Made by a program: the position numbers and the translations under genes. From assembly GCF_001904635.1 (NCBI RefSeq), contig NZ_MRCB01000033.1:1-52040 (forward strand): a stretch of DNA of 52,040 nt. Direction: 5' to 3'. Source of the DNA: Hydrococcus rivularis NIES-593 (GTDB taxonomy: Bacteria > Cyanobacteriota > Cyanobacteriia > Cyanobacteriales > Microcystaceae). Shown one piece after another: positions 17,331 through 35,744 of the stretch. Each line of letters opens with the position of its first letter. Positions within the stretch are counted from its first letter, which is position 1. The notes below the pieces were generated by a model, which did not search any database, was not told the DNA's origin, and was given only the letters and a program-made list of their open reading frames with translations.

Positions 17331-20300
17331 TCAGCGCGGCTGGCAGGTGGCTGAATTTCGCTCCTGACGTTGAATTCCTGTCCTAGCCGGGTTGTAGGCA
17401 ACGAGAACCACTTCGCCTTTTTCGTTGCGCACCCACCCTTGGGCTGGTACGATCTCTTTGGCAGCAGTCGAGATAGACGGCGAGGTTACAGTAGCTGCCG
17501 ATTCTTCGGCTGGTTCGACCAAACCAACTCCCACTTCATCGCTGGTTTGGACTTGTTCGGGAGTCGAGGGCAAACCGCCCCGTCCGGTGATAGTAAATTC
17601 GCTTTGCGCTCCCTTTTTACAGGCGTTCTGGGCAATGAGCTGGTTGGGATCGACGACGGTTTCCGGCAAGTCCACTAATCCTTGGCTGGGGTCAGTTTCA
17701 GGAGTGTTGATTTCTACGACTCCCTCTACTCCAAGTTGAGAACTAGCGGTAATTTGACTGTCAGGAGTGAGAAAGATTCCTTGAGCCGTTATCCTGATGT
17801 TGCCCCCCCTGCCAGCAAAGGCATTGGCGGTTATATCGCTATTATCGCTGGCGACTAGGAAGTCGGTATTAATGGCGATATTGCCCCCATTTCCCGTTCC
17901 GCCTGCGGTTGCCGAGATAGGACTGTTGTTTCGCAGACGCAAGAGATCTGAGATTTGCAGGGTGATATTACCGCCTTCTCGACTAGCAGTAGCGGCGGAG
18001 ATTTCCGAACTCTTGTCGAGGGTTAGATTGTCTGCGGTGAGGAAGATGCTCCCACCATTACCCTGTCCCTGGCTATTGACGCTGATTTTTGCCCCGTCAG
18101 TGAGATTAACTTGGTTGGGATCGATAAAAATATTACCGCCGTCGCCTGTAGAGCCAGAAGCGGTGCTGGCTTCTATGGAACTGGCGCTTAGGTTAAGACG
18201 GTCTCGAAGATTGAGAGTAATATCTCCAGCTTTTCCACTGCTAGCGGTATTGGTTTGAATTCGGCTACCGCCTGTGGCTTCAAAAGTATTAGCAGTGATG
18301 GTAATTTTGCCCGCATCTCCTTGTCCTGCGGTACTGGCGGTAATTTGAGAGCCGTCGGTTAAGGAAAGTTGTCTGGTTTGAATGTCAATGTTGCTTGGTT
18401 GATTGGCAACGCCTTCAGTTCCTATGACAGTGGAAATCGAGCTGTTGTTGGAGAGAAATACATTTTCATCTGCCCTTACCCGAATATTACCAGCATTCCC
18501 ACGACCAAATGTGGTAGCAGCCAGTTCAGCACCATTCGTAACAGAGAGTGAGCTTGTTTGGATATCCACATTTCCACCGTCGCCTATGGCTTCGGCTCGC
18601 ACATTGCTAAAAGCACCACTGGTAAATCTGATAGAGCCGCTTCTCCCTTCTCCGTCAAAAGAGACGGTATCACGCGCTCGGACGATCACATTACCAGCAT
18701 CTCCACGACCAAATGTAGCAGCAACTAGTCGAGAGCCCTTCGTAACAGAGAGTGAGCCCGTCTGGATCTCAATACTCCCGCCATTGCCTACAGCTCCGGG
18801 ATCGACTGCACTGAAGGCAAAACTTTCATCAAAGGAGACAGTATCACGGGCTCGAATAATTATATTGCCTGAGTTGCCTTCTCCAGCAGTGCTGGCACTC
18901 AATCGAGCGCCATTAATGGTCAAAAGCGAGCCTGCCTCAATTATCAGGTCACCCCCATTACCTATAGCTCCTTTTTCCACCGTGACACCTAAATTGTTTT
19001 CACCAAAGTTTCCAGCTTCAACACCTTTACCACCATCGACCGAGACTGTATCGCGGGCTTGAATGACAAGATTACCAGCATTCCCACGACCAAATGTGGC
19101 AGTCGATACCCCTCCACCATCCCGGACGATCAACCTTCCGGTTTTAATCCTCAAGTCTCCGGCATCTCCAATGGACCCTCGTCTGACAGCAGTAGTTAAG
19201 AGACTGGGCGATCCAAATGCTGAAGCACCTATGACTTCCACTGAGTCCCTCGCTCGTATGAGCAAGTTCCCAGCATTTCCCTTACCAGCAGTATCTGCCG
19301 TCACATCTGCACCATCTCTGACAATCAGCCGTTCCGTTTCAATGGTCAAGTTTCCCGCATTTCCCTCGCCTCCTGGCTCGACCCGAACTCGTAAACGACT
19401 AGGAAACCGACCAATTGCCGCCGTGCCAATTAGCTCTACTTCAGAAGCACGAACAGTTAAGTTTCCGCCATCCCCTACGCCAAAAGTGGCAGCCGACACT
19501 TGTCCACCATCTCTGAGGGTTAATCGTCCTGCTTCAATGAGTATATCTTTTGCATTTCCCTCAGCCCCTATTTCAACTTGAGCATGTATGCCGCTGTCAA
19601 ACCGACCATCTGCTGATTCTCCAATCACTTCCACTTCAGAAGCGCGAATTATTAGATTTCCAGCATCTCCTACACCAAAAGTAGAATTATTTACTTGCGC
19701 ACCATCTCTGATAGTTAACCGTCCCGTTTCGATAGTCATATTGCCCGCATTTCCCTCACCTTCTTTCGCGACTTGAGCACCCAAAAGGGTGGGGAACCGA
19801 CTATCAGGTGCGTTTCCCCTCAGTTCCACCGACTCAGAGGCGATCGCAGTCACGTTTCCTGCCTTCCCCTTGCCAGTAGTGAGTGTCAGTACCTGTCCCC
19901 CATCCTGGATAATCAGCGTCTCAGTTGCAATCGTCAAATTTCCAGCATCGCCTGCACCAGAAGTAGAATTCAACACGCGGGCACCATCGCCACTGACACT
20001 CAACTGCTCGGTCGTAATCATCAAGTTTCCAGCAGTCCCAGCATCAGAGGTACCAGAAAACAAGCCACTAAGCAGACCATCTGCTTTTGTTCCCCTCAGT
20101 TCCACCGACTCAGAGGCAGTCACAGTCAAAGTTCCCCCAAGACCTTCGCTAAAAGTATTAGATGATACCACTGCCCCATCCCGGACAATCAACTTTCCTG
20201 TGTCAATCGTTATATTTCCAGCGGCTCCGGTGCCTTGAGTTTGAGCAAATAAGCCGCTGGAGAACCGTTTATCTGCTGAGGTACCAATCAGTTCCACTTC

Positions 20301-21434
20301 AGAGGCACGAACTATTAGATTTCCCGCATCCCCTTTACCAAAAGTAAGAGCTGCTACTTGAGACCCATCGCTGACACTCAAGCGTCCAGTCTCGATAGTC
20401 ACGTCTCCTGCATTGCCCAGAGTCCCAGAGTCTGCATAGTTCAGGATAAAGCTGTTATTTGCAACTGTCGTTGTCCCTGTAGCATTGAGTGTAATATCTC
20501 CCGCCTGACTGCCAACTGACCCCAAACCTGCCCCTATCCCAGTAAGGAGGACACTGCCTCCCAAAACATCTATATCTTGGGCATCGATCGCAATACTACC
20601 GCCACTCCCAGCGGTCACATCAACAAAAGCTTCATTGGTGAGTGATACATCTGCTCGCGCTATACCATCAGGAAAACTCAGGCTACCGTCACCATTCAGC
20701 CCTACTATCCCCATTCCGGTTAGTCCCCCCAATTCTACTTGCCCACCCGGAGCCAGCAAAAGCCCCCCATCCAAGCTCACATCGCCGCCTACTAGCGCTA
20801 ACGTTTTCCCTAGCTGTACTTGCAGGCTAGAGCCTTGCACGCCAATACTCCCTGCCTTCTCTCTAAATCGCAAGCCAATAGGAATATTCACTGTCAACAG
20901 GGGTGGTGCTTGGGGATTAGCGGCGCTAAAATCAAAGCCATTATCAAATAAAAGACTATCGGCTGTAGAAGCCACAAAAGAACCACGCACGTCCAACCGA
21001 GCGTTAGGTCCAAAAAGAATCCCATTGGGATTGATCAGGAATAGATTCGCATTTCCTAAAACTCCCAATGTTCCCAGAATATTAGAGGGATTACCACCTG
21101 TAACGCGAGTGAGAATGTTTTCAATGGCTGCGGGATTGGCAAAATAAGCGCCCCTGCCTTCCTCTATATTGAAATCTTGAAAACTGTGGAAAAGGTTCGC
21201 TCCCCTAATTGCTCCCCCTTCGATCGCGTCGCTGGGAAGACCGTTAATATTGTCTTGCCTGACAGTAGAACTTTCTGCCCCAAGAGTACCATCAGGAACG
21301 ATCTGCGCCGCCGCAGGAGAACATAAGGTAATACGGCTAATCAGTGGAAGAGCTAACAAGAGTGATTTTCGCCACCCTTGTCTGTCACCAGCCAATAGAT
21401 TAGCCGCTACAGTAGATTCCAATCTCTGTACCAT
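17331..21434 (-). CDS. Two-partner-secretion exoprotein, filamentous haemagglutinin-like (TpsA)
   Basis: From ATG at 21434 the product is about 1367 residues; a TTG at 21518 would add 28. A signal peptide (KSLLLALPLISRITLCSPAAAQ) precedes the TPS domain, which bears the SFQDFNIEEG and NPNGILFGPNARL motifs needed for recognition by the TpsB pore. The body is a long run of beta-helix repeats of about 60-80 residues, typified by GDAGNLTIETGRLIVRDGAQV and the alternation with ARDTVSFDG. The C-terminus has one cysteine-containing segment, NACKKGAQSEFTITGRGGLP, a common ending of cyanobacterial TpsA. It is secreted to the surface; the target is unknown. Confidence 0.93.
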   Translation of the reverse strand: MVQRLESTVAANLLAGDRQGWRKSLLLALPLISRITLCSPAAAQIVPDGTLGAESSTVRQDNINGLPSDAIEGGAIRGANLFHSFQDFNIEEGRGAYFANPAAIENILTRVTGGNPSNILGTLGVLGNANLFLINPNGILFGPNARLDVRGSFVASTADSLLFDNGFDFSAANPQAPPLLTVNIPIGLRFREKAGSIGVQGSSLQVQLGKTLALVGGDVSLDGGLLLAPGGQVELGGLTGMGIVGLNGDGSLSFPDGIARADVSLTNEAFVDVTAGSGGSIAIDAQDIDVLGGSVLLTGIGAGLGSVGSQAGDITLNATGTTTVANNSFILNYADSGTLGNAGDVTIETGRLSVSDGSQVAALTFGKGDAGNLIVRASEVELIGTSADKRFSSGLFAQTQGTGAAGNITIDTGKLIVRDGAVVSSNTFSEGLGGTLTVTASESVELRGTKADGLLSGLFSGTSDAGTAGNLMITTEQLSVSGDGARVLNSTSGAGDAGNLTIATETLIIQDGGQVLTLTTGKGKAGNVTAIASESVELRGNAPDSRFPTLLGAQVAKEGEGNAGNMTIETGRLTIRDGAQVNNSTFGVGDAGNLIIRASEVEVIGESADGRFDSGIHAQVEIGAEGNAKDILIEAGRLTLRDGGQVSAATFGVGDGGNLTVRASEVELIGTAAIGRFPSRLRVRVEPGGEGNAGNLTIETERLIVRDGADVTADTAGKGNAGNLLIRARDSVEVIGASAFGSPSLLTTAVRRGSIGDAGDLRIKTGRLIVRDGGGVSTATFGRGNAGNLVIQARDTVSVDGGKGVEAGNFGENNLGVTVEKGAIGNGGDLIIEAGSLLTINGARLSASTAGEGNSGNIIIRARDTVSFDESFAFSAVDPGAVGNGGSIEIQTGSLSVTKGSRLVAATFGRGDAGNVIVRARDTVSFDGEGRSGSIRFTSGAFSNVRAEAIGDGGNVDIQTSSLSVTNGAELAATTFGRGNAGNIRVRADENVFLSNNSSISTVIGTEGVANQPSNIDIQTRQLSLTDGSQITASTAGQGDAGKITITANTFEATGGSRIQTNTASSGKAGDITLNLRDRLNLSASSIEASTASGSTGDGGNIFIDPNQVNLTDGAKISVNSQGQGNGGSIFLTADNLTLDKSSEISAATASREGGNITLQISDLLRLRNNSPISATAGGTGNGGNIAINTDFLVASDNSDITANAFAGRGGNIRITAQGIFLTPDSQITASSQLGVEGVVEINTPETDPSQGLVDLPETVVDPNQLIAQNACKKGAQSEFTITGRGGLPSTPEQVQTSDEVGVGLVEPAEESAATVTSPSISTAAKEIVPAQGWVRNEKGEVVLVAYNPARTGIQRQERNSATCQPR

Positions 21435-21719
21435 TTTTCTTGATGAAATTTTTTGATCGCTTGATTTGGTAATTGCTGTAAAAAATGAGTAACTTGGGTT
21501 AAGCTGCTCGCGAACCAAACAACCTATAGAGGTGTTAGATTTCTCTACGTCAACCCAGTCGACAATTTCTCTTAACCAAGCAGGATTGAACCAGAAATTA
21601 GCTAGCGATCGCCTTGGTTACAGTGTTTAAAAAACTAAAATTTGTTAAATAAATTATGAGTTAATTAAGGATAAATTTATGATATATCTTTTTAGAATTG
21701 ACAATTCAAAATTCACAAT

Positions 21720-23504
21720 TTAAAATAAATTGAGATTTAGGCTAAAATACAGCCCGTTGTCGTTCCAAGTTCTCTTCTCAATATCCACATCAACTAGAGG
21801 AATCCCCCAATCCAAACGGGCGCTGAAATCGTCCCCCATTTGCCACTGCAAACCAAGACCGACACCCACGAGCGCATTCGGATCTGGGTCGGGAAAATCG
21901 CCATTATTCCAGCCGACCCCAAAATCCACAAACGGCACGATCTGCAACACTCCTTCTACTTCCGAGACTCGTACAATAGGCAGTCGCGCTTCAACGCTAG
22001 CTAGAAAGCCATTATCCGTCAGCAGTAAATCCTGCCGATAGCCTCGGACAGTTCCCAAGCCTCCAATAGAAATTTGCTCTAGCGTTAAAAGGGGGTCAGT
22101 TGCTAGCTGGAGATCGGAACGAACGACCAACAAGGTGTCCGGTGCAAGCAATCGCACGTACTGCCCTTGCCCTCGCCAAGCGAAAAAACGGCTATCGGGA
22201 AGTCCCTCTCCATTGACCGTCGCATCAAATGCCCCAACACCTAGACTAAATTGGGAGCGAAGAGCAAACACTTCTTGCGGATTGCGTTTAACCCAGTCCT
22301 GGAAAAACCGAATCGCTGAGATGCGAATTTCTCCCTGGTTGTTAGCCCCCGGAGAAAGAGGAAAGCCCTCGCCCAAAATAAAGTTTTGGCTTTCCTGTCG
22401 AGAGAGGGTCAACCCCAAGGCGAATTCTTCGCTAGGAGATTGAAACAATGGCTGGCGCAGCGTTAGTTCGTAGTAGTGATAGTCTCCAGTAATGTCTAAA
22501 CGCTCAAACTGGCGATCGATTACCTCATTGTCGCTCAATCCCCCTGCCAGTCTAATCGTACCGTTATAAGGATTGATGGGAATGGTATAGCTGAGATCTA
22601 AGGCGGTACTTCCATCAGTGTTGGAGAGACTGGCATCGAGACTATCCCCAAAGCCTGCTAAATTTCCTACCGTGAGGCGAGCGCCTCGTCGAAAGCTGCC
22701 TACACTGGGATTGCGTCCGTTATCGGCAAAGGGGGCGAGGGTAAAATAATCTGCCTCTGCGACTTGAACTTCAAGTAAACTCGAATCTGGACGCACCCCA
22801 GCCGATAATTCAGCCGAAATGCTTTCAATCAGTGGGTCGAGTTGCAATAGTTGCAGCGCTTCCAGCAGGCGGTTTTGATTGAGGGGCTTAGAGGTGGCAA
22901 CTGCCAAGCGATCGCGCACGTAGTCGGGATTCAGCCGTCTAGTTCCCGTGATTTGGATATCTTCGATGCCTCCTTCAATAATCGTAATTGTCACTACTGC
23001 TTTTTCTGGGAGGAAAGCTTGACTCGCTTCGATGACCGCACCAGAATTAATGTAACCTGCCTGGATGTAGAGATTGGTCACGGCTTCTTCTGCTTGGATC
23101 AGTTCGGCAAAGGTTATTTCCTTTCCAGTAAAAGGTTCAACTGCCTCGCTTAATTCTTCATCACTGAAGGCTGTATTGCCGACAAACTCAAATCGTTCAA
23201 CCCGAATCTTGCCAGGAATTTCCTCAAGCGGTGAAGGCATTGGCTGTGTGGGTGGAGTTTCGAGGCGGGGCTTTTCGGGTTCGGTTGGCAGTTCGGTTGG
23301 CGGTTCGGGAGTTTTGGGAGGAATTGGGTTGGGAAGTTGAGATAAATATTCGTTGTCGGTTAGATCTGGCTGGTAAGTATCTACCGTTTTACTCTTTGGG
23401 ATAGAGATATTGGCAGGGGAAGCTGCTGCTTGGACAACACTTCCCACAACTGTTAGGAGGACTGGTATGATAAACCGATTTTGCTGAAAAATCCTACATA
23501 ACAC
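21720..23504 (-). CDS. TpsB outer-membrane transporter (ShlB/FhaC/HecB family)
   Basis: The 594-residue protein has a signal peptide, a proline-rich linker (PPKTPEPPTELPTEPEKP), POTRA domains (about 110-260, including GKEITFAELIQAEEAVTNLYIQAGYINSGAV-like helix-strand patterns) and a C-terminal 16-strand beta barrel. The barrel holds SIGGLGTVRGYRQ, the conserved VRGY motif of loop L6 in Omp85/TpsB proteins, and ends in Phe, as outer-membrane barrels do. It exports the TpsA encoded 200 bp downstream on the same strand. Spacing suggests one transcription unit that also carries the TPR-CHAT gene. Confidence 0.94.
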   Translation of the reverse strand: MLCRIFQQNRFIIPVLLTVVGSVVQAAASPANISIPKSKTVDTYQPDLTDNEYLSQLPNPIPPKTPEPPTELPTEPEKPRLETPPTQPMPSPLEEIPGKIRVERFEFVGNTAFSDEELSEAVEPFTGKEITFAELIQAEEAVTNLYIQAGYINSGAVIEASQAFLPEKAVVTITIIEGGIEDIQITGTRRLNPDYVRDRLAVATSKPLNQNRLLEALQLLQLDPLIESISAELSAGVRPDSSLLEVQVAEADYFTLAPFADNGRNPSVGSFRRGARLTVGNLAGFGDSLDASLSNTDGSTALDLSYTIPINPYNGTIRLAGGLSDNEVIDRQFERLDITGDYHYYELTLRQPLFQSPSEEFALGLTLSRQESQNFILGEGFPLSPGANNQGEIRISAIRFFQDWVKRNPQEVFALRSQFSLGVGAFDATVNGEGLPDSRFFAWRGQGQYVRLLAPDTLLVVRSDLQLATDPLLTLEQISIGGLGTVRGYRQDLLLTDNGFLASVEARLPIVRVSEVEGVLQIVPFVDFGVGWNNGDFPDPDPNALVGVGLGLQWQMGDDFSARLDWGIPLVDVDIEKRTWNDNGLYFSLNLNLF

Positions 23505-28384: not shown

Positions 28385-29419
28385 ATGTTAAGAAAAAACT
28401 ATCAAAGCTTTAAACTTGCAGATAGTCTCAAATTAACTTCTCGGTTACTCGATCGAGAAGAAAATAGCGAACTTTTGCTAGATATTCAGTCTGTCTGCGA
28501 CCATCTATCAAGCCCAAACTTTAGAGTGGCTGTATTTGGTTCTTTTAATCATGGTAAGTCAACTTTGCTGAATGCTTTACTAGGGAAAAAAATCTTACCT
28601 ACAGATCTGATTCCGACAACGGGGGCAGCTATTAATATTAAATATGGAACTGAATTAACAACTCGAATTATTCGGTCAGATGGAACAGAGATCGATGAGA
28701 AAGGAACAGAAATTCTTCAGCGTTTTACTAGATTAAATAGCGAGCGAATCATGCGCTCCGATCTTTCTTCTGTAGAAGTTTTTCTTCCTCATCCTTTATT
28801 AAAGAATGGTGTAGAGTTGCTCGATCTTCCAGGGACTAACGATCGCGAAGAGCAGGACAATTTAGTTCGTCGTCAACTGCTCAGTGCAGATTTGATTATT
28901 CAAGTTTTAGATGCTAATCAGCTTTTTACCTTAACCGAAGTAGACAATCTTCAAGATTGGCTAATTGATAAAGGAATTGAAACGGTTATTTTTGTTGTCA
29001 ATTTTTTAAACTTATTAGAGATTGAAGACCAGAAAAAAGTCATGCAGCGATCGCGTTCTATTGCTGAAGAATTTCGCGGTAATTTCCCTAACGGTATTAG
29101 TAACTTATATCGAGTCGATGCATTACCAGCTTTCAAAGCTAAACAGCAAGGAGATCGAGCAACAGCTTTTAGCAGCGGTATATTAACCCTTGAGTCGGCT
29201 GTGCAAAATCTTGTTGCAATTCTATCAAACGATCTTCAAAGATATCGTTTACTTAGAGTTGTAGCGATCGCTAATCGAGTTAAACAAATTTTAGAAGAGC
29301 GAGTAAGGTTTCTCTGTCAACTAAATACAGAATTACAAAATGCTAGAGAGTATCTGGAGGTTTACTGTTATGAAAAATCAATATTCCCAATCGGATTCCA
29401 CAACAAGACAGACAGATAA
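28385..29419 (+). CDS. Dynamin-family GTPase, C-terminally truncated
   Basis: The 344-residue product keeps an intact GTPase front: VAVFGSFNHGKSTLLNALLG (P-loop), the switch threonine in PTTGAAI, and LDLPGTNDREEQ. The G4 region reads VVNFLNLL, without a clear Asp. Normal dynamins of this sort continue with long helical stalk sequence. Here the coil breaks after LQNAREYLE and ends with an unrelated 17-residue tail. The last 50 bp overlap the lasso precursor gene in another frame, and the ribosome-binding site of that gene is inside this ORF. It is probably a truncated gene, whether still functional or not. Confidence 0.85.
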   Translation: MLRKNYQSFKLADSLKLTSRLLDREENSELLLDIQSVCDHLSSPNFRVAVFGSFNHGKSTLLNALLGKKILPTDLIPTTGAAINIKYGTELTTRIIRSDGTEIDEKGTEILQRFTRLNSERIMRSDLSSVEVFLPHPLLKNGVELLDLPGTNDREEQDNLVRRQLLSADLIIQVLDANQLFTLTEVDNLQDWLIDKGIETVIFVVNFLNLLEIEDQKKVMQRSRSIAEEFRGNFPNGISNLYRVDALPAFKAKQQGDRATAFSSGILTLESAVQNLVAILSNDLQRYRLLRVVAIANRVKQILEERVRFLCQLNTELQNAREYLEVYCYEKSIFPIGFHNKTDR

Positions 29420-29546
29420 GAATCGTGCGATTCAGTCCTATCTTGCACCCCAACTGGTCGTCGTTGGAAAAGCAAGCGACTTGGTGCAGAGTTACTCTTA
29501 TGGCAAATACTCAGACGGCTACTCAGGTTATTACTGGGAGCGTTAG
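29370..29546 (+). CDS. Lasso peptide precursor (A protein)
   Basis: The ORF is 58 residues and starts at ATG 29370 behind a GGAGG ribosome-binding site. The leader is residues 1-40 and holds the RRE recognition motif YLAPQL (YxxPxL, Tyr24, Pro27, Leu29). The predicted core is residues 41-58, SYSYGKYSDGYSGYYWER. Ser1 to Asp9 would make a 9-membered macrolactam ring, leaving a tail GYSGYYWER. The usual Thr at leader position -2 is replaced by Val39 (leader end DLVQ). An alternative core from Ser43 would give a 7-membered ring with Asp49. Tyrosine and glycine dominate the core. The fused B and C genes follow directly. Confidence 0.85.
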   Translation: MKNQYSQSDSTTRQTDKNRAIQSYLAPQLVVVGKASDLVQSYSYGKYSDGYSGYYWER

Positions 29547-29627
29547 GAAATTCTAGCTCATTAAGAGCTAACACTTATATCAGCATCAGGACTCTGAATT
29601 CATAGACAACAAACAACTATCAGTGAA

Positions 29628-30422
29628 ATGGTTACTACGATCGAAGAGATTTGTAAATCTGATTTAGGAAGTACGCTCTCCTGTGAGGCTCAATATATTT
29701 TAGCTCCAGATGTTATTCTGCTGCTTATCTCGGATGGCACAGCGAGGCTTCTTGACTTGGGGGGCTACTTCTATGCTATTTCCGCTACTGGGACTGAGAT
29801 GCTTGAGGAAGTTTTGGAGAGAGATACTGCTTCAGCAGCGTCAAGAATGGCACTACGGTACGGCGTAGATGTTCAACAAATACACAAAGACCTGAAAAGT
29901 TTCTTAGAGGATTTAAAGAAACGCGGTTTGGTTCGTCGTCCTAATTCGCGCTGGCATTTAATAAGCGATATTAAGACATTTGTGGCGTTTTTTATGCTCT
30001 TTCCCGCCCTCTATTTTACTCATTGTAGCGATCGCTTATTGAGGACAAAAGCATGGATTCTTCTGACGCTAGGATACATTTCCATTGCCCTTTTTGGCTG
30101 GGCTACAACTGTAACCGTATGGCAGCGTTACTATCGTAAGGTTTCTGAACTCCAATCTAGGCAAGAAAGTGAGAAAACTATAAAGACCATTGATGAGGTG
30201 GTTCGTGCAGTAACAGCAAAGCACTTTTTGAATATAGGGTGTAAGGAGCGAGCTTTGTGCTGCTGGGATCTGATTCGCTCGGCTGGTTTGCCTGCAAAGC
30301 TGGTTCTGGGAGTCGATCTGTTCCCGCTAGCAAGTCATTGTTGGTGTGAATTCGGCTCGCAAGTGTTAAGTGACTACGAAGATCGGTGCGAACGTTTCAC
30401 GCCGATATTGTGTTACGAATAA
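29628..30422 (+). CDS. Lasso peptide B protein: RRE fused to transglutaminase-like peptidase
   Basis: The 264-residue protein removes the leader and presents the precursor to the cyclase. Residues ~20-110 form a PqqD-like RIPP recognition element (LLISDGTARLLDLGGYFYAIS). The second half is the B2 leader peptidase. In NIGCKERALCCWDLIR the first Cys (Cys205) aligns with the family nucleophile, His237 lies in ASHCWCE, and Asp249 in VLSD. Two hydrophobic segments (about 117-131, 143-165) separate the parts. The fused B1-B2 form is known from other lasso clusters. It ends 11 bp before the cyclase gene. Confidence 0.88.
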   Translation: MVTTIEEICKSDLGSTLSCEAQYILAPDVILLLISDGTARLLDLGGYFYAISATGTEMLEEVLERDTASAASRMALRYGVDVQQIHKDLKSFLEDLKKRGLVRRPNSRWHLISDIKTFVAFFMLFPALYFTHCSDRLLRTKAWILLTLGYISIALFGWATTVTVWQRYYRKVSELQSRQESEKTIKTIDEVVRAVTAKHFLNIGCKERALCCWDLIRSAGLPAKLVLGVDLFPLASHCWCEFGSQVLSDYEDRCERFTPILCYE

Positions 30423-30433
30423 TCCAGAGAACT

Positions 30434-32290
30434 ATGAATATTGGATTCTCAGTTGTTACACAAGACAAAGGGGTTGATTTTCAACTCTTTCAACCCAGCA
30501 TTAGCGATCGCCCAGTCCTGGTGACCTACTCTCAGGCATTCGATTGCTCGGCAGTTTGTATGGGTAGGCTTTACTACCGACACGAGCTACTCCCAAAGTT
30601 AGCCTCCCGACTGCCAAAGAATTTTTTAAGCGAATGCGAGTCTAATTATGCTGCTCTAGCACTAGCAGCTTACTGGCAATTCGGATTCAAAGGATTGGAA
30701 CAATTGGAAGGAGACTTTGCCCTCGTCATTTGGGATGCTAAAGAAAACCGCCTGATTGGCATTCGAGATCCGATGGGAGGCTATCCCCTGTTTTGGACGG
30801 AATCTAACGGCAGAATCGCTTTGAGTAATAGTCTGAGTTCTCTACTGGATTTACTGCCGCATCGAAAGCTCTCGCTTGATTACCTAGCCGAGTTTCTAAT
30901 GATTCCTGGACCAGTTAATGAAAGATCTGCCGAAGGGTGTGTTTATGAAGGCATTCACCGGGTCTTGGCAGGCACGATAGTCAGTATAAATATTTCCACT
31001 AGACGGAGCGAGCGATACACCTACTGGAATTGGCTGGAACGCATGATTGAGCCAACGACAGATTGTCTCGAAGAGATTAGCCAACAGTATGCAGAACTCT
31101 TAGGTCAAGCCATTCGAGAGCGGATTTGTGGACGAACAGCTTCCCATTTGTCTGGAGGGATGGACTCAACTGCCGTCTCCCTAATCGCACGCGATTTAAT
31201 TGCTTCGGGTGCTGGCGAAGCCCCTCTGCACGCACTTTCTCTTGTTTATAGCCAACTTCCCGGACTTGCGCGGGAGATGCCTTACCTCGAAACTGTCCTG
31301 CAACAGGAGAAAGACATTGTGCCGCATCGGATACCTGCCGATGACCTGCTAGATTTTGATAGCTTTACCAATCCGCCACCTCACGATGAGCCTTATGCTG
31401 TTTTGTGGCGCTTAGGGATGGATCGGGCGATCGTAAATGCTGCCGCCAAGTTCGGGGCAGATACTATGCTTACTGGTCTTGGCGCTGATGAAATGCTGGA
31501 TGTCCAGCCTTTCTACATCACCAATTTGCTTCGTCAGTGGCGTTTCCGTGCCGCCTGGACAGAAGCTTGCAAGTGGTCGCAGACAGACAATTGTAGTCCC
31601 TGGGGAATTCTTTATCCTTTTGGTATTGCTAGCTTATTTCCAGCTTGGACGCGCGGTCTTAGCGAGATTTTGCTGCGCCGAAGCCATCCAAATTTGAGCA
31701 AGCAGAATGACTGGAGTATCCCGCCTTGGATCTTGCCTGGTTTTACTCGCCGCCAAGCGCTGCGGAGTTATGCGATCGGGAACGCTCGCCGCATCTACCG
31801 CTCCTGCAACTCGACAGCCCTTTCCTTTGCTATTTCTTCTATTGAAAGCAGAATAGGGGATGTAATTCGTTGGTCGGTAGCAGCCCCCCAAGGCATAGCA
31901 ATCGCTCATCCCTTCCTCGATGTTCGCATTTTGCGTTTCTGTCTGGGCATTCAGGCTAAGCTCAAGCCGGAACCTGGCAGAATGAAGCCTATTCTTGCCG
32001 AAGCCATGCAGGGTATTCTTCCCGACCAAATTAGAAATCGTCCTCGCAAGGGACAATTCAACGAGGTTTACTACCTCGGTTTGGCTCGGAACTTAGAGAA
32101 TTTAGAGACAACGATCCGACAGGCTCCCATTGATGACTTAGGCATACTGGACAAAGATATCTTGATTCGTTATCTCCGAGAGGCTGCACTTGGAGGTGCC
32201 CATGTGCGTCAGCTTCACCGCCTAAACTTGACACTTTCGCTTATCAGATGGCTCTGTATGCAAAAGGAAACTAAAAATTTGATTTTGTAA
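30434..32290 (+). CDS. Lasso cyclase, asparagine synthetase-like (C protein)
   Basis: The 618-residue protein forms the macrolactam by adenylating the ring Asp/Glu. The N-terminal part resembles the glutaminase-like domain of asparagine synthetases but lacks the catalytic Cys at position 2 (MNIGFSV), as in lasso cyclases. The synthetase domain has the ATP-pyrophosphatase loop LSGGMDSTAVSLIA (about 240-253) and later GLGADEML and AIAHPFLDVRIL. The start at 30434 is chosen because an earlier in-frame start (30386) would overlap the B gene. Gene order A-B-C is standard; no ABC transporter gene follows in the window. Confidence 0.9.
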   Translation: MNIGFSVVTQDKGVDFQLFQPSISDRPVLVTYSQAFDCSAVCMGRLYYRHELLPKLASRLPKNFLSECESNYAALALAAYWQFGFKGLEQLEGDFALVIWDAKENRLIGIRDPMGGYPLFWTESNGRIALSNSLSSLLDLLPHRKLSLDYLAEFLMIPGPVNERSAEGCVYEGIHRVLAGTIVSINISTRRSERYTYWNWLERMIEPTTDCLEEISQQYAELLGQAIRERICGRTASHLSGGMDSTAVSLIARDLIASGAGEAPLHALSLVYSQLPGLAREMPYLETVLQQEKDIVPHRIPADDLLDFDSFTNPPPHDEPYAVLWRLGMDRAIVNAAAKFGADTMLTGLGADEMLDVQPFYITNLLRQWRFRAAWTEACKWSQTDNCSPWGILYPFGIASLFPAWTRGLSEILLRRSHPNLSKQNDWSIPPWILPGFTRRQALRSYAIGNARRIYRSCNSTALSFAISSIESRIGDVIRWSVAAPQGIAIAHPFLDVRILRFCLGIQAKLKPEPGRMKPILAEAMQGILPDQIRNRPRKGQFNEVYYLGLARNLENLETTIRQAPIDDLGILDKDILIRYLREAALGGAHVRQLHRLNLTLSLIRWLCMQKETKNLIL

Positions 32291-32487
32291 GTCACGTTTT
32301 TTGAACAGTAATTCTAGAGGAATAAACTGTTGCATATTCCCAATCCAATGATGGAGGTTCAGTGAAACTATACTGAATAAAAATGATTCGCCAGTATTTC
32401 CAACAAGACTGTATTGAATGCAGAGATACGATTGCTGGTACCAGTAAATTTGTAACAGATTCCTAAATATGGAGTGCAAGTATAATT

Positions 32488-32643
32488 ATGTTTGCAAAAC
32501 GCAATTCACCAACAATCCTGGTTGCTTGTGCAGCAGTATTAATGGGTGCATTAGTCAGTTGTAATCAAGCCAAACAATCGCCTGTTTTTCCTCCAGAAAG
32601 AGGTGAAGATCCGATCGCAGGAGAATTTATGATTTATGTATAG
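32488..32643 (+). CDS. Small predicted lipoprotein
   Basis: This 51-residue ORF begins MFAKRNSPTILVACAAVLMG and has a lipobox GALVSC at the end of a hydrophobic helix, so Cys25 would be lipidated. The mature part is only about 27 residues (KQSPVFPPERGEDPIAGEF). A TATAAT box lies 4 bp before the ATG, too near to serve as its promoter for a normal leader. Its stop overlaps the next ORF start by 8 bp. It may be a membrane-anchored partner or an immunity-like factor for the lasso product, or a remnant of a larger lipoprotein. Confidence 0.5.
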   Translation: MFAKRNSPTILVACAAVLMGALVSCNQAKQSPVFPPERGEDPIAGEFMIYV

Positions 32644-33133
32644 CGATCTTGAGGCAATTTGGCAAATAACACTTACTCGACCTCACGTCATTGAAATCAA
32701 AAACACAGGTGGCTTTTTTCAAGATAGATTCAGAGTCATTGTCAATGGAATTGAAATTTTAAATCAACCAATCTTTTGCGGTTATGGTTCGCACTCATTT
32801 ATCTTGGATGATTCTCTTGTAGAAATCCGTTGGTTTGTCAACTATTTTTCGGGAAAAATAGATTCCATAGTACTGAGGCGAGACGAGATAATCCTTGCCC
32901 AGTATGGTAGCGATCGCGCTGTCGGTAAAACTTTTATTTCTAATCGCGATCGAGCGTTTTTATCCAATAAAAATAATGAGAGAAAAAAGGAGAAGTATGA
33001 CTCAGAGAGAAGCGAAATAATCCAAATTACTCGTGGCAAGAATGCCAGCAAATGGAGGACATCTATTTACATCATCGGAACTACCACATCGGGTAAGAAA
33101 GCAGGACTGTTTACTAAAGCCGTTGAGACTTAG
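32636..33133 (+). CDS. Uncharacterised protein, overlapped with the small lipoprotein
   Basis: The 165-residue product is not recognised. Its first half (IWQITLTRPHVIEIKNTGG, RFRVIVNGIEILNQPIFCGYGSHSFIL and VEIRWFVNYFSGKIDSIVLRRDEIILAQYG) has a beta-sandwich-like alternation resembling the internal repeats of fas-apoptosis-inhibitory-like or C2-like folds. The last ~65 residues are lysine- and serine-rich and less structured. It starts inside the end of the lipoprotein gene, in another frame, so a frameshift joining the two is possible. No link to lasso biosynthesis is shown. Confidence 0.5.
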   Translation: MYSDLEAIWQITLTRPHVIEIKNTGGFFQDRFRVIVNGIEILNQPIFCGYGSHSFILDDSLVEIRWFVNYFSGKIDSIVLRRDEIILAQYGSDRAVGKTFISNRDRAFLSNKNNERKKEKYDSERSEIIQITRGKNASKWRTSIYIIGTTTSGKKAGLFTKAVET

Positions 33134-33143
33134 CGATCGCCAT

Positions 33144-33572
33144 TTATTCTCCTAGTTCATGCACGTAAGCGGGTCGGGGAGAGAGTTGATTGAGTAAAAC
33201 CCGATCGATTGTCCAAAATTGGGCAGATTCGCTTTCGGCAACTGCTAGAAAGGCAGCATCATAGAGGGTTGGGAGTTGATACTGAAGAGCAAGTTCCCAG
33301 GATCTCATTCTAACCGACTCCTCGTTGATGTAGTCTATGGGGAGATTACAAAAGTCCTCATAACAGCCTTGCGCTTGCTCTGCCGTCAGCAAATCCATCC
33401 TGATTTTTTTTCGCAAGACAGACCCGATTTCTGCCCAAGCAAAGGCGGGAGCAACTAAACGGGCGGCCCCTGAAACGGCTTCTAATACCAGAGTATCTGC
33501 CTGGGGTTCGTGTTCGTCTGGGACGAGGTAGGACACTAAAACGCTGGTATCTAGACAGAAAACTCTATTCAC
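33144..33572 (-). CDS. PIN-domain toxin (VapC-like)
   Basis: The 142-residue protein opens FCLDTSVLVSYLVPDE, with the first PIN acidic residue Asp8. A conserved Glu lies in FAWAEIGSVL, another Asp in LPTLYDAAFLAVAE and a final Asp in FWTIDRVLLNQL. These form the metal-binding site of PIN ribonucleases. The gene overlaps the upstream antitoxin gene by 8 bp, and both are on the minus strand, the usual VapBC arrangement. It lies between the lasso region and repeat copy B. Confidence 0.9.
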   Translation of the reverse strand: MNRVFCLDTSVLVSYLVPDEHEPQADTLVLEAVSGAARLVAPAFAWAEIGSVLRKKIRMDLLTAEQAQGCYEDFCNLPIDYINEESVRMRSWELALQYQLPTLYDAAFLAVAESESAQFWTIDRVLLNQLSPRPAYVHELGE

Positions 33573-33819
33573 GCCGCCCTTCCCCTTCTCTGAGAGCGCG
33601 AATCAGTGCGGTAGCATCTGGCTGTACGCCAGTTTTTGCCTTAATTTCAGCCCGCCTAGCCACAATGCTCTCATGGGCTGAGAGTGCCCGTCTCCGTCTC
33701 ACCTCTCGCTCCACTGCTTCTACTACTAGCTCATTGAAGGATTCCCCACCATATTTTAGCTGTTTGGCTTGACGGACTAACTTCGCAGGAAAGCGGATGG
33801 TAACGGCTTCACGTTCCAT
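33565..33819 (-). CDS. Ribbon-helix-helix-like antitoxin
   Basis: The 84-residue protein has an N-terminal DNA-binding-like segment, AVTIRFPAKLVRQAKQLKYGGESFNELVVEAVEREVRRRRA, that fits a ribbon-helix-helix strand-helix-helix. The C-terminal part is basic and would wrap the toxin. Its stop overlaps the toxin start, so translation is coupled. It would repress its own promoter and neutralise the PIN toxin; both are family knowledge rather than visible here. Confidence 0.8.
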   Translation of the reverse strand: MEREAVTIRFPAKLVRQAKQLKYGGESFNELVVEAVEREVRRRRALSAHESIVARRAEIKAKTGVQPDATALIRALREGEGRRE

Positions 33820-33900
33820 ATCGATCTATCTAGTAACTTACTTGTGATATCATTTATTGTAACCTTTTTTCGATGGCAATGGCTCGCTCTGCCTCTCTAA

Positions 33901-34157
33901 TCGCGCTTTAGCGACTTCGTGACTTGAGAAGCGCCGCTTCGGAGAGGTTGAAGTTTTTAAAGACTGCACGTTCAGGAAACAGATTGCAAAACTCTTATCA
34001 GTCAATTGTGCATAGGTGCGATCGCGTGAGAGATATCTTTAAGCGAATCGAGCTTATCAGGGTTGGCTTAGCAGCAAGGAAACTATTGATGGGTTCCGAA
34101 CGAGTTAATCCGGTTAAGACCGAAAACTGCATAAGTGCGATTGCGTGAGAGATACCT
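33901..34157 (+). repeat. Long intergenic repeat, copy B
   Basis: Closely similar to 23640-23867, in the same orientation, with about 30 extra bases after GCGCCGC. It contains two TGCATA(A/G)GTGCGAT(C/T)GCGTGAGAGATA units about 119 bp apart. A 74-residue frame (33924-34148) runs through it, but the same frame is broken in copy A, so I do not call a gene. It fills most of the gap between the antitoxin gene and the 34278 gene. Confidence 0.75.
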
Positions 34158-34277
34158 TGTATCAGGTCAAAGTTAAAAGGTTGAACAGACCATGGAAGGG
34201 ACTACTGTCAGGCCCTGAAACGATCCCTTACAACTTGGCCACCGAGGTTCATTTTTGTAGATTTGGAGGTATTTTCA

Positions 34278-34772
34278 ATGACTACTTGGGTTTATGATGT
34301 TACGCTCACTGGAATTGTGAATCAACAACGATTTCAACGTCCGGGTCAGCTTGTTATTAGTAACGACTCCATCGTCAATCCTCAAGGAACTAGTAATGAT
34401 GTGAATTTCTGGGAGGTAGGTCTTTTTTCTAGCGATGTACCATCGCTAGGTCCTGCTAACCCCCAAGGGACTGGAGCTATTACGTTCGTCACCAATAATG
34501 CTCTTCTTGGAAGAAGCCCAGTTGATACAGTGTATGAGGCGTATGATTCCCAAACAAACACAGTTTACATCGGACCAGATCCACAAACTCTCAGCTATGG
34601 TCAGAACCAATTTAGTAGCGGGGGGCTTTTATCGACACCGGGTTTAATCTCTAGTGGCTACATGGCACTCCAACCTCAAAATGATAACTCAATACTTGGA
34701 GCAATCGATTTTTCGGGTCCCGGTGGAGGATATCAGGCACAATTCAGTGGAACACTTGTACAGGTAGTCTAA
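34278..34772 (+). CDS. Uncharacterised beta-rich protein
   Basis: From ATG 34278, behind a GGAGG at 34265-34269, the product is 164 residues. It starts MTTWVYDVTLTGIVNQQRF and is rich in Gly, Ser, Asn and Pro with many short strands (SNDVNFWEVGLFSSD, GTGAITFVTNNAL, GYMALQPQNDNS). There is no signal peptide, cysteine or catalytic motif. The composition resembles proteins exported by type I or related systems, and a parvulin isomerase gene follows 220 bp later on the same strand. A substrate-chaperone relation is a guess. Confidence 0.65.
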   Translation: MTTWVYDVTLTGIVNQQRFQRPGQLVISNDSIVNPQGTSNDVNFWEVGLFSSDVPSLGPANPQGTGAITFVTNNALLGRSPVDTVYEAYDSQTNTVYIGPDPQTLSYGQNQFSSGGLLSTPGLISSGYMALQPQNDNSILGAIDFSGPGGGYQAQFSGTLVQVV

Positions 34773-34994: not shown

Positions 34995-35744
34995 ATGACT
35001 GCGGTTTTACATGTAGGTAATCAAACCATCACCGCTGAGGAAGTCCTTCCTCTACTGACCAATTACCAGATAATGCCTCAACTGTTGCGTGAGATCGTCA
35101 TTGAACAAGCTATTATCCCTTTTACCTGTACAGATGAAGAGAAAGCCAGTGCCTGCCAACAGCTTTATCAAAAAAAACACCTACACCTGGAAACAGAGCA
35201 GCAAGCTTGGCTGGAGCGTAATGGGATGACTCCAGAGCAATTAGAAGCTTTACTTGCTCGAAGACTAAGAATTGAGAAATTTAAGCAAGCTACCTGGGAG
35301 TGTAAACTCGAATCTTACTTCCTTCATCGCAAGAGGCAGCTCGATCAAGTTATTTTCTCTCTGCTTCGGACGACAGATATGGGGATTGCTCAAGAACTCT
35401 ATTTCCGGCTTCAGGAAAAGGAGCAGTCCTTCGCCGATTTGGCTCAAGAATACTCTCAGGGTCCAGAAGCCCAAACTGGTGGGTTCGTAGGTCCGGTCGA
35501 GCTAAACACTCTCCACCCGGCTTTGGCTCAGATGCTTTCAGCGAGTCAACCCGGTCAACTTTGGTTCCCCTTTGCACTAGGAGAATGGGTGGCGATTGTG
35601 CGACTAGAAAAGTTAATACCAGCTCAGTTAGACGAACCCATGCGCCAGCAACTGCTGGGCGAACTATTTGAAGCCTGGATTCAAAAGCAAGTTAGTCAAC
35701 ACCTTGCAAAAGTTATCCAGAAAGACCGAGTTCAGAATTGCTGA
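34995..35744 (+). CDS. Parvulin-type peptidylprolyl isomerase
   Basis: The 249-residue protein has a helical N-terminal part (about 1-115, SurA-like) and a parvulin domain at about 118-215, with LDQVIFSLLRTTD, SFADLAQEYSQGPEAQTGGFVGPVELNTLHPALAQML and LGEWVAIVRLEKL. No signal peptide is visible, unlike PrsA or SurA, so it should work in the cytoplasm. Cytoplasmic isomerases of this type often stand beside peptide secretion genes in cyanobacteria, but no transporter is present here. RBS AAGGAG lies upstream. Confidence 0.88.
   Translation: MTAVLHVGNQTITAEEVLPLLTNYQIMPQLLREIVIEQAIIPFTCTDEEKASACQQLYQKKHLHLETEQQAWLERNGMTPEQLEALLARRLRIEKFKQATWECKLESYFLHRKRQLDQVIFSLLRTTDMGIAQELYFRLQEKEQSFADLAQEYSQGPEAQTGGFVGPVELNTLHPALAQMLSASQPGQLWFPFALGEWVAIVRLEKLIPAQLDEPMRQQLLGELFEAWIQKQVSQHLAKVIQKDRVQNC

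Follow-up and report, generated by a model that had tools for sequence, protein, structure and literature searches.

Two reports describe systems close to the locus treated here. In the first (PMC10368454), a precursor with Ile at leader position -2, whose leader was removed, is given as the earliest exception to Thr(-2) with experimental validation, and every cluster with Ile or Val at -2 found there carries a kinase or a phosphotransferase. Because removal of an Ile(-2) leader has been shown, Thr(-2) is usual for lasso-peptide clusters but does not define them. In the second (PMC12670498), the observed first residues of the core are Gly, Cys, Ser and Ala, to which Asn was added. We report here on a 52,040-nt stretch of Hydrococcus rivularis NIES-593 (contig NZ_MRCB01000033.1, positions 1 to 52,040; hereafter the window), in which a precursor gene (A), a gene for a fused RRE-peptidase (B) and a gene for an asparagine-synthetase-like cyclase (C) stand in one row at 29370-32290 on the + strand. 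A-B-C is very probably an intact lasso-peptide operon with a predicted product, one of a coherent lasso subfamily marked by Val/Ile(-2) and aromatic-rich cores. The reading rests on which genes are present, on matches to profiles and folds, and on conservation of the catalytic residues, the leader and Asp/Glu9. An initial annotation of this DNA had already proposed a lasso cluster; frames and translations bore out its three genes with their order, coordinates and residues, and the lasso reading stands as the best interpretation, but the features it had held to be peculiar (Val(-2), aromatic richness and Ser1) proved to be largely family traits or already known.

The frames of A, B and C are all open, with plausible starts, and a pseudogene through frameshift was rejected for that reason. 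Gene A starts at an ATG at 29370 with GGAGG nine bases upstream; an alternative frame from 29340, giving 68 aa, is possible but less likely. As had been claimed, the 58-residue precursor has a YxxPxL leader, here YLAPQL at -17 to -12 (Tyr -17, Pro -14, Leu -12), with Val instead of Thr at -2 and Gln at -1. The 18-residue core, SYSYGKYSDGYSGYYWER, does contain six Tyr (positions 2, 4, 7, 11, 14 and 15), far above the window background: none of 13,379 18-mers from window frames of at least 250 aa reaches six and the binomial P is 7e-6, so that the Tyr richness is not due to chance. Asp9 is the sole acidic residue within positions 7-10. A core beginning at the Tyr after the Ser was also considered, and rejected as it would disrupt the -17 spacing. 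Among the relatives' precursors, the one from Aquisphaera insulae is nearest (core GGSYGAYEDSYSGYKWNR; 42% identity over residues 9-58, E 3e-8). Ser1 in place of Gly is indeed present but is not peculiar, since it occurs in three of 23 distinct family cores and is among the first residues known from experiment (PMC12670498).

The fused RRE-peptidase with a Cys/His/Asp triad was borne out by profiles and conservation alike. Protein B scored 64.7 bits against lasso_biosyn_B2 (NF033537; cut-off 33), 40.5 bits against PqqD (cut-off 23.4) and 56.9 bits against Transglut_core3 (cut-off 26). In the whole genome of the strain there is one B2 match and one PqqD match, both to gene B. Among 20 aligned B proteins, all of which match lasso_biosyn_B2 and the lasso PqqD model, Cys205 and His237 never vary and at least 90% keep Asp249; since a C[KR]ER pattern served to choose most of the set, the conservation of Cys205 is partly a product of selection, while that of His and Asp is not. 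The structure model of B has a mean predicted local distance difference test (pLDDT) score of 90.1. In a structure search, the best match of its RRE half was TbiB1 with bound leader (template modeling (TM) score by target 0.80-0.83, best E 0.009), and against the lasso B1 protein 6jx3 the TM score by target was 0.88. In the model, the RRE half resembles leader-binding lasso B1 proteins, and leader binding is predicted.

For C we take the ATG at 30434 as the start; a longer GTG frame from 30386 overlaps B. The protein matches Asn_synthase (PF00733) at 89 bits (cut-off 21) and GATase_7 at 52.2 bits (cut-off 25). It begins MNIG and thus has no glutaminase Cys at position 2, which agrees with the cyclase lacking that Cys in the initial annotation. 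A plain asparagine synthetase was rejected on account of the missing Cys2 and the adjoining lasso B2. The lasso cyclase model matches all 23 family cyclases at E <= 0.001, and SGGMDS is invariant across the 23 when aligned. The structure model of C (mean pLDDT 88.7) matches TsnB9, beta-lactam synthetase and asparagine synthetase.

In the mechanism that we propose, the RRE half of B would bind the YxxPxL leader of A, and its Cys/His/Asp peptidase half, adapted to Val or Ile at -2, would cleave after Gln(-1) and free the core. C would then use ATP to adenylate the Asp9 side chain and couple it to the amine of Ser1. The result would be a ring of nine residues with the Tyr/Trp-rich tail threaded through it; in that tail, Tyr14, Tyr15 and Trp16 are likely plug candidates. 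The predicted product has a computed monoisotopic mass of 2211.917 and [M+2H]2+ of 1106.966. A function of the peptide, if any, may be antimicrobial or signalling.

Table 1. Cluster genes, predicted core and adjoining gene in the window
Feature	Position	Strand	Content	Basis
Precursor gene A	29370..29546	+	58 aa: 40-aa leader and 18-aa core SYSYGKYSDGYSGYYWER	Frame, aligned relatives' precursors
Predicted core	29490..29543	+	Predicted ring Ser1-Asp9, tail GYSGYYWER	Boundary by leader spacing
B	29628..30422	+	264 aa; RRE ~27-102, transglutaminase-like leader peptidase ~136-261; Cys205/His237/Asp249	
C	30434..32290	+	618 aa; predicted ATP-dependent lasso cyclase, asparagine-synthetase family, SGGMDS	Profiles, alignment, model
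3'-truncated dynamin-like GTPase gene	28385..29419	+	344 aa; runs into A	Homolog alignments

Across 386 genomes of the phylum, that of the strain included, three others carry the cyclase at 39-44% identity and near full length (430-503 bits), the next-best match among the 386 having 136 bits. In the window's own taxonomic family, 4 of 49 other genomes match the cyclase at E <= 1e-20, and none of the three in the same genus does; we infer that this family includes Crocosphaera, because the match there coincides with one of our loci, L055. A genome scan gave 61 loci, of which 25 (L034-L058) carry the cyclase family of C at 31-54% identity. They come from cyanobacteria, planctomycetes, Alphaproteobacteria and Methylobacteriaceae bins, one Nitrococcus bin and one Anaerolineae bin. 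No relative was found in viral contigs searched with the cyclase; two stretches there fit a pattern and none was confirmed. A tree was built from 23 family cyclases (the window and 22 loci, with the partial L049, L056 and L057 left out) and from 21 Thr(-2), 5 acidobacterial and 6 other rows. All 23 family cyclases fall on one side of a branch with support 100/100. The Thr(-2) row L010 adjoins them (97/90), a placement that is unsure because its branch is very long (2.44). The sister of the window cyclase is that of Fischerella muscicola PCC 7414 (99/98), followed in nearness by sequences from planctomycetes, methylobacteria and a chloroflexus bin. Given such tree neighbours, transfer of the gene set from one phylum to another is probable, and some bins are perhaps misassigned. 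One Anaerolineae bin (L043) and one Alphaproteobacteria bin (L044) have a near-identical cyclase, common cores and like-starting downstream frames of 1083 and 302 aa, a likeness that points either to a transfer not long ago or to faulty binning.

Of the 25 relative loci, 21 proved to have precursors next to the cyclase (26 precursors, or 27 with that of the window), and the four loci without one (L049, L055, L056 and L057) are all cut by contig ends. The search used a YxxPx[hydrophobic] leader, with [LIV]Q also for L035 and L058, and picks were made by eye; composition and position 9 played no part in the selection. In a test free of any boundary rule, Thr was absent from motif offsets 14-17, which can hold positions -3 to 1, in all 27 family precursors. 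Position -2 is Val in 14, Ile in 7 and Leu in 2 of the 23 distinct cores, where the boundary rule itself required V, I or L, whereas 25 of 26 control precursors, which lie beside other cyclases, have Thr(-2), the exception being acidobacterial. The mean aromatic share of the core is 32% in the 23 distinct family cores versus 8% in 25 controls, seven rows having been dropped before the comparison (Mann-Whitney P 3e-9, which overstates the significance because near relatives are counted separately). Asp or Glu stands at position 9 in 18 of the 23, as compared with 2.1 on average and 10 at most when the cores were shuffled 5000 times. Four or more Tyr occur in 11 of the 23 cores, and that of the window has the highest count. 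Since the relatives' precursors share them, hydrophobic -2, aromatic richness and D9 are family traits.

The first core residue varies within the family: Gly in 12 distinct cores, Ser in 3, Ala in 3, Arg in 2, and Asn, Asp and Gln in one each, where the Gln1 core (L035) would have Gly1 if it began one residue later. Caulonodins are reportedly lasso peptides with Ser1 or Ala1; likened by description, they and the window both have Ser or Ala, not Gly, as ring residue 1, and differ in the Tyr-rich core of the window. The predicted first residue is Arg at L038:7627-7794 and L050:7682-8038 (Moorena and an Isosphaeraceae bin), Asp at L058:7466-7672 (Anabaena azotica) and Asn at L034:8002-8178. Neither Arg1 nor Asp1 is among the first residues named in PMC12670498. 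In two further precursors, L037:7545-7736 and L035:12356-12637 (the latter with Gln as -1), from Gloeocapsopsis and a Phycisphaerales bin, Asp10 is the sole acidic core residue, which would mean ten-residue rings.

Like the window, the BsfA system of Bradymonas sediminis (PMC10368454) has a YxxPxL leader, a hydrophobic residue at -2 and lasso B and C enzymes. It differs in that BsfB1 and BsfB2 are separate proteins whereas B of the window is fused, and in that Bsf-type clusters carry a kinase or phosphotransferase whereas, in the 18 genomes searched, no HPr-kinase match lies near a cyclase of the family. The family cyclases also form a clade apart from the five acidobacterial ones; BsfA is set apart by description, not by sequence. 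Metanodin (PMC12670498), likened by description as well, resembles the family in a first residue outside Gly, its Asn1 being that predicted for one of two Fischerella precursors, and has Thr(-2), unlike the family. Cyanobacterial Thr(-2) controls (L005, L008, L019, L020, L027, L029, L060, L061, L064 and L068) share the phylum and a YxxPx[LIVMF] precursor beside an asparagine-synthetase-like cyclase, but where these cyclases align with C, their identity to it is 24-30%. In literature searches of open-licence papers we found no description of a Val/Ile(-2), aromatic-rich lasso subfamily, nor lasso peptides called tyrosine-rich or aromatic-rich, which given that scope is weak evidence.

Scans of the window gave no kinase. 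Hpr_kinase_C, the only kinase model used for the relatives, was searched in the genome of the strain, in 17 of the genomes that hold the 25 family loci, and in 2 acidobacterial genomes. At E <= 0.01 it had no match in the strain's own genome or in 8 of the 17 relatives' genomes; the other nine and both acidobacteria had one, four of them over the cut-off. In the nine positive genomes no Hpr_kinase_C match lies near the family cyclase, the matches being on other contigs or, in Moorena, more than 1.2 Mb off. In six of those genomes, seven kinase matches are no more than 3 kb from a different cyclase match (27-31% identical), and these pairs serve as a positive control for the kinase search. The six genomes (G424 and G428-G432, those of L034, L038, L040, L042, L045 and L046) thus hold another lasso-like cyclase away from the family locus, close to which an HPr-kinase-like match lies, and these may be phosphorylated lasso clusters.

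Upstream of A lies a 3'-truncated gene for a dynamin-like GTPase, overlooked in the initial annotation, which ends within the precursor gene. The GTPase has matches in 11 other genomes, nine of them without an inner stop and in frames of 457-583 aa, and in the alignments with these nine the similarity stops at 29299-29350 eight times and at 29425 once. When the missing 3' half was sought downstream of C (32250-34300), only chance-level matches came up (best E 0.07). Since the similarity stops there and the rest was not found downstream, the left edge of the cluster is likely a recombination junction. An empty insertion site was not shown in relatives; the lipase gene upstream of the truncated gene is absent from the 49 other genomes of the window's taxonomic family (E <= 1e-30). 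Neighbour genes of the window, compared with relative loci mostly over a 1.5-kb flank, gave a single match, an M48 peptidase gene (32%, L054).

An exporter-type ABC gene is present at 12 of the 25 relative loci (L035-L038, L044-L049, L054 and L058) and absent from eight with enough flank (L034, L040-L042 and L050-L053), L042 having a lone 224-aa ABC ATPase 6 kb away. These calls rest on simple motif tags, on Pfam for L036 and on likeness by eye, with L039, L043 and L055-L057 outside the count. In Richelia sinica (L045:4912-6261) the exporter gene is split into frames of 296 and 142 aa, where three relatives have one 613-aa frame. The genome of H. rivularis gave no full-length match to the L049 exporter: 65 ABC matches were found, none starting before its residue 222, the best at 40% over residues 376-620.

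Several results weigh against an intact lasso operon. In the study of PMC10368454, no mature lasso peptide was detected from the Ile(-2) precursor. No family profile matched A, Foldseek with the B model returned nothing at E <= 0.001, and a PDB sequence search with B gave no meaningful match. A lack of RRE and lasso cyclase profile matches, which would have refuted the initial annotation, was checked for, and the lasso reading was not refuted, since both enzymes gave matches. That of C to the lasso cyclase model NF033535 (lass_lactam_cya), at 169.4 bits, is under the curated cut-off of 525, so that C is not placed in that subfamily; with the albusnodin/ikarugamycin model it scored 152 bits against a cut-off of 300. 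The truncated gene leaves little room for a promoter of the cluster's own, and sigma-70-like sites number 7 versus a shuffled mean of 8.5; a terminator scan found nothing above shuffles. As had been stated, no exporter gene was seen; the Pfam scan behind this covered 35 window frames, some of those with 100-170 aa being left out. The cluster might accordingly be silent or in decay, having arrived by transfer as a fragment and been deprived of promoter and exporter on landing in the dynamin-like gene, and the cut GTPase gene, the missing exporter and the absence of the cyclase from the other same-genus genomes speak for this. We nevertheless consider it unlikely: the three frames are open and the catalytic residues kept, a good ribosome site precedes A, the Fischerella sister locus and seven others are also without an ABC exporter, and transcription from the promoter of the GTPase gene is possible. 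An expressed product would be exported by an unlinked transporter or not at all.

It is rather improbable that the enzymes are of the lasso type but yield an unthreaded branched-cyclic macrolactam, or that the ring closes elsewhere or from another start residue. The family cyclases are far from curated models and the ring position varies, with cores having D8, D7/D8 or D10 in place of D9; against this, the window core offers only Asp9 at 7-10, the leader spacing Tyr(-17)/Pro(-14)/Leu(-12) matches the known one (PMC10368454), and bulky Tyr and Trp residues are located in the tail. That B and C serve some other chemistry of ribosomally synthesized and post-translationally modified peptides, one whose real targets are the Tyr side chains and for which the cyclase homology is misleading, is hardly credible. 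The core is rich in Tyr and Trp, and the ATP-dependent family in which C is a divergent member is a versatile one (beta-lactam synthetase, TsnB9); against this, the scanned neighbours include no radical SAM, P450 or similar tailoring enzyme, D/E at 9 is a lasso ring acceptor pattern, and B is a lasso B2/RRE fusion.

Other genes were observed around these clusters. Eight of the 25 family loci (L045, L046, L047, L048, L051, L052, L053 and L054), from cyanobacteria, a Nitrococcus bin and a bin of Alphaproteobacteria, have a gene for a pentapeptide-repeat protein close by, assigned by motif tag and confirmed by Pfam for L051, L052 and L053; the protein is a possible immunity factor. Directly 3' of the cyclase, three Nostoc/Komarekiella loci (L040:10930-11913, L041:10931-11914 and L042:10931-11914) have a PhyH-type dioxygenase gene, assigned by Pfam for L040 and by like start and size for the other two, which perhaps encodes a peptide hydroxylase. 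In the window, 17331-23504 on the - strand holds a two-partner secretion (TPS) pair, namely a 1395-aa TPS-domain protein and a ShlB/FhaC-type outer-membrane transporter. A PIN-domain protein (Pfam) and a small overlapping partner without a Pfam match, at 33144-33819 on the - strand, are likely a toxin-antitoxin pair. PPIC-type rotamase genes adjoin peptide exporters in cyanobacteria; one lies at 34995-35744, with no exporter found near it.

Beyond the locus itself, we tentatively propose, judging it somewhat more apt to fail than to hold, that this is an undescribed multi-phylum, aromatic-rich lasso subfamily in which the fused B has come to prefer Val/Ile over Thr at -2 with no link to phosphorylation, and whose cyclases accept first residues not reported in the literature consulted (Arg1, Asp1) and possibly form ten-residue rings. 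The mining of genomes for lasso peptides relies on Thr(-2) and known precursor patterns as rules, and here a whole clade breaks the Thr(-2) rule uniformly. The clade shows how the specificity of a leader peptidase can shift, and offers about two dozen natural precursor-enzyme sets for finding the residues that set -2 specificity. Its first-residue and ring-position variants are test cases for the limits of the cyclase, and Tyr/Trp-rich lassos may serve as scaffolds.

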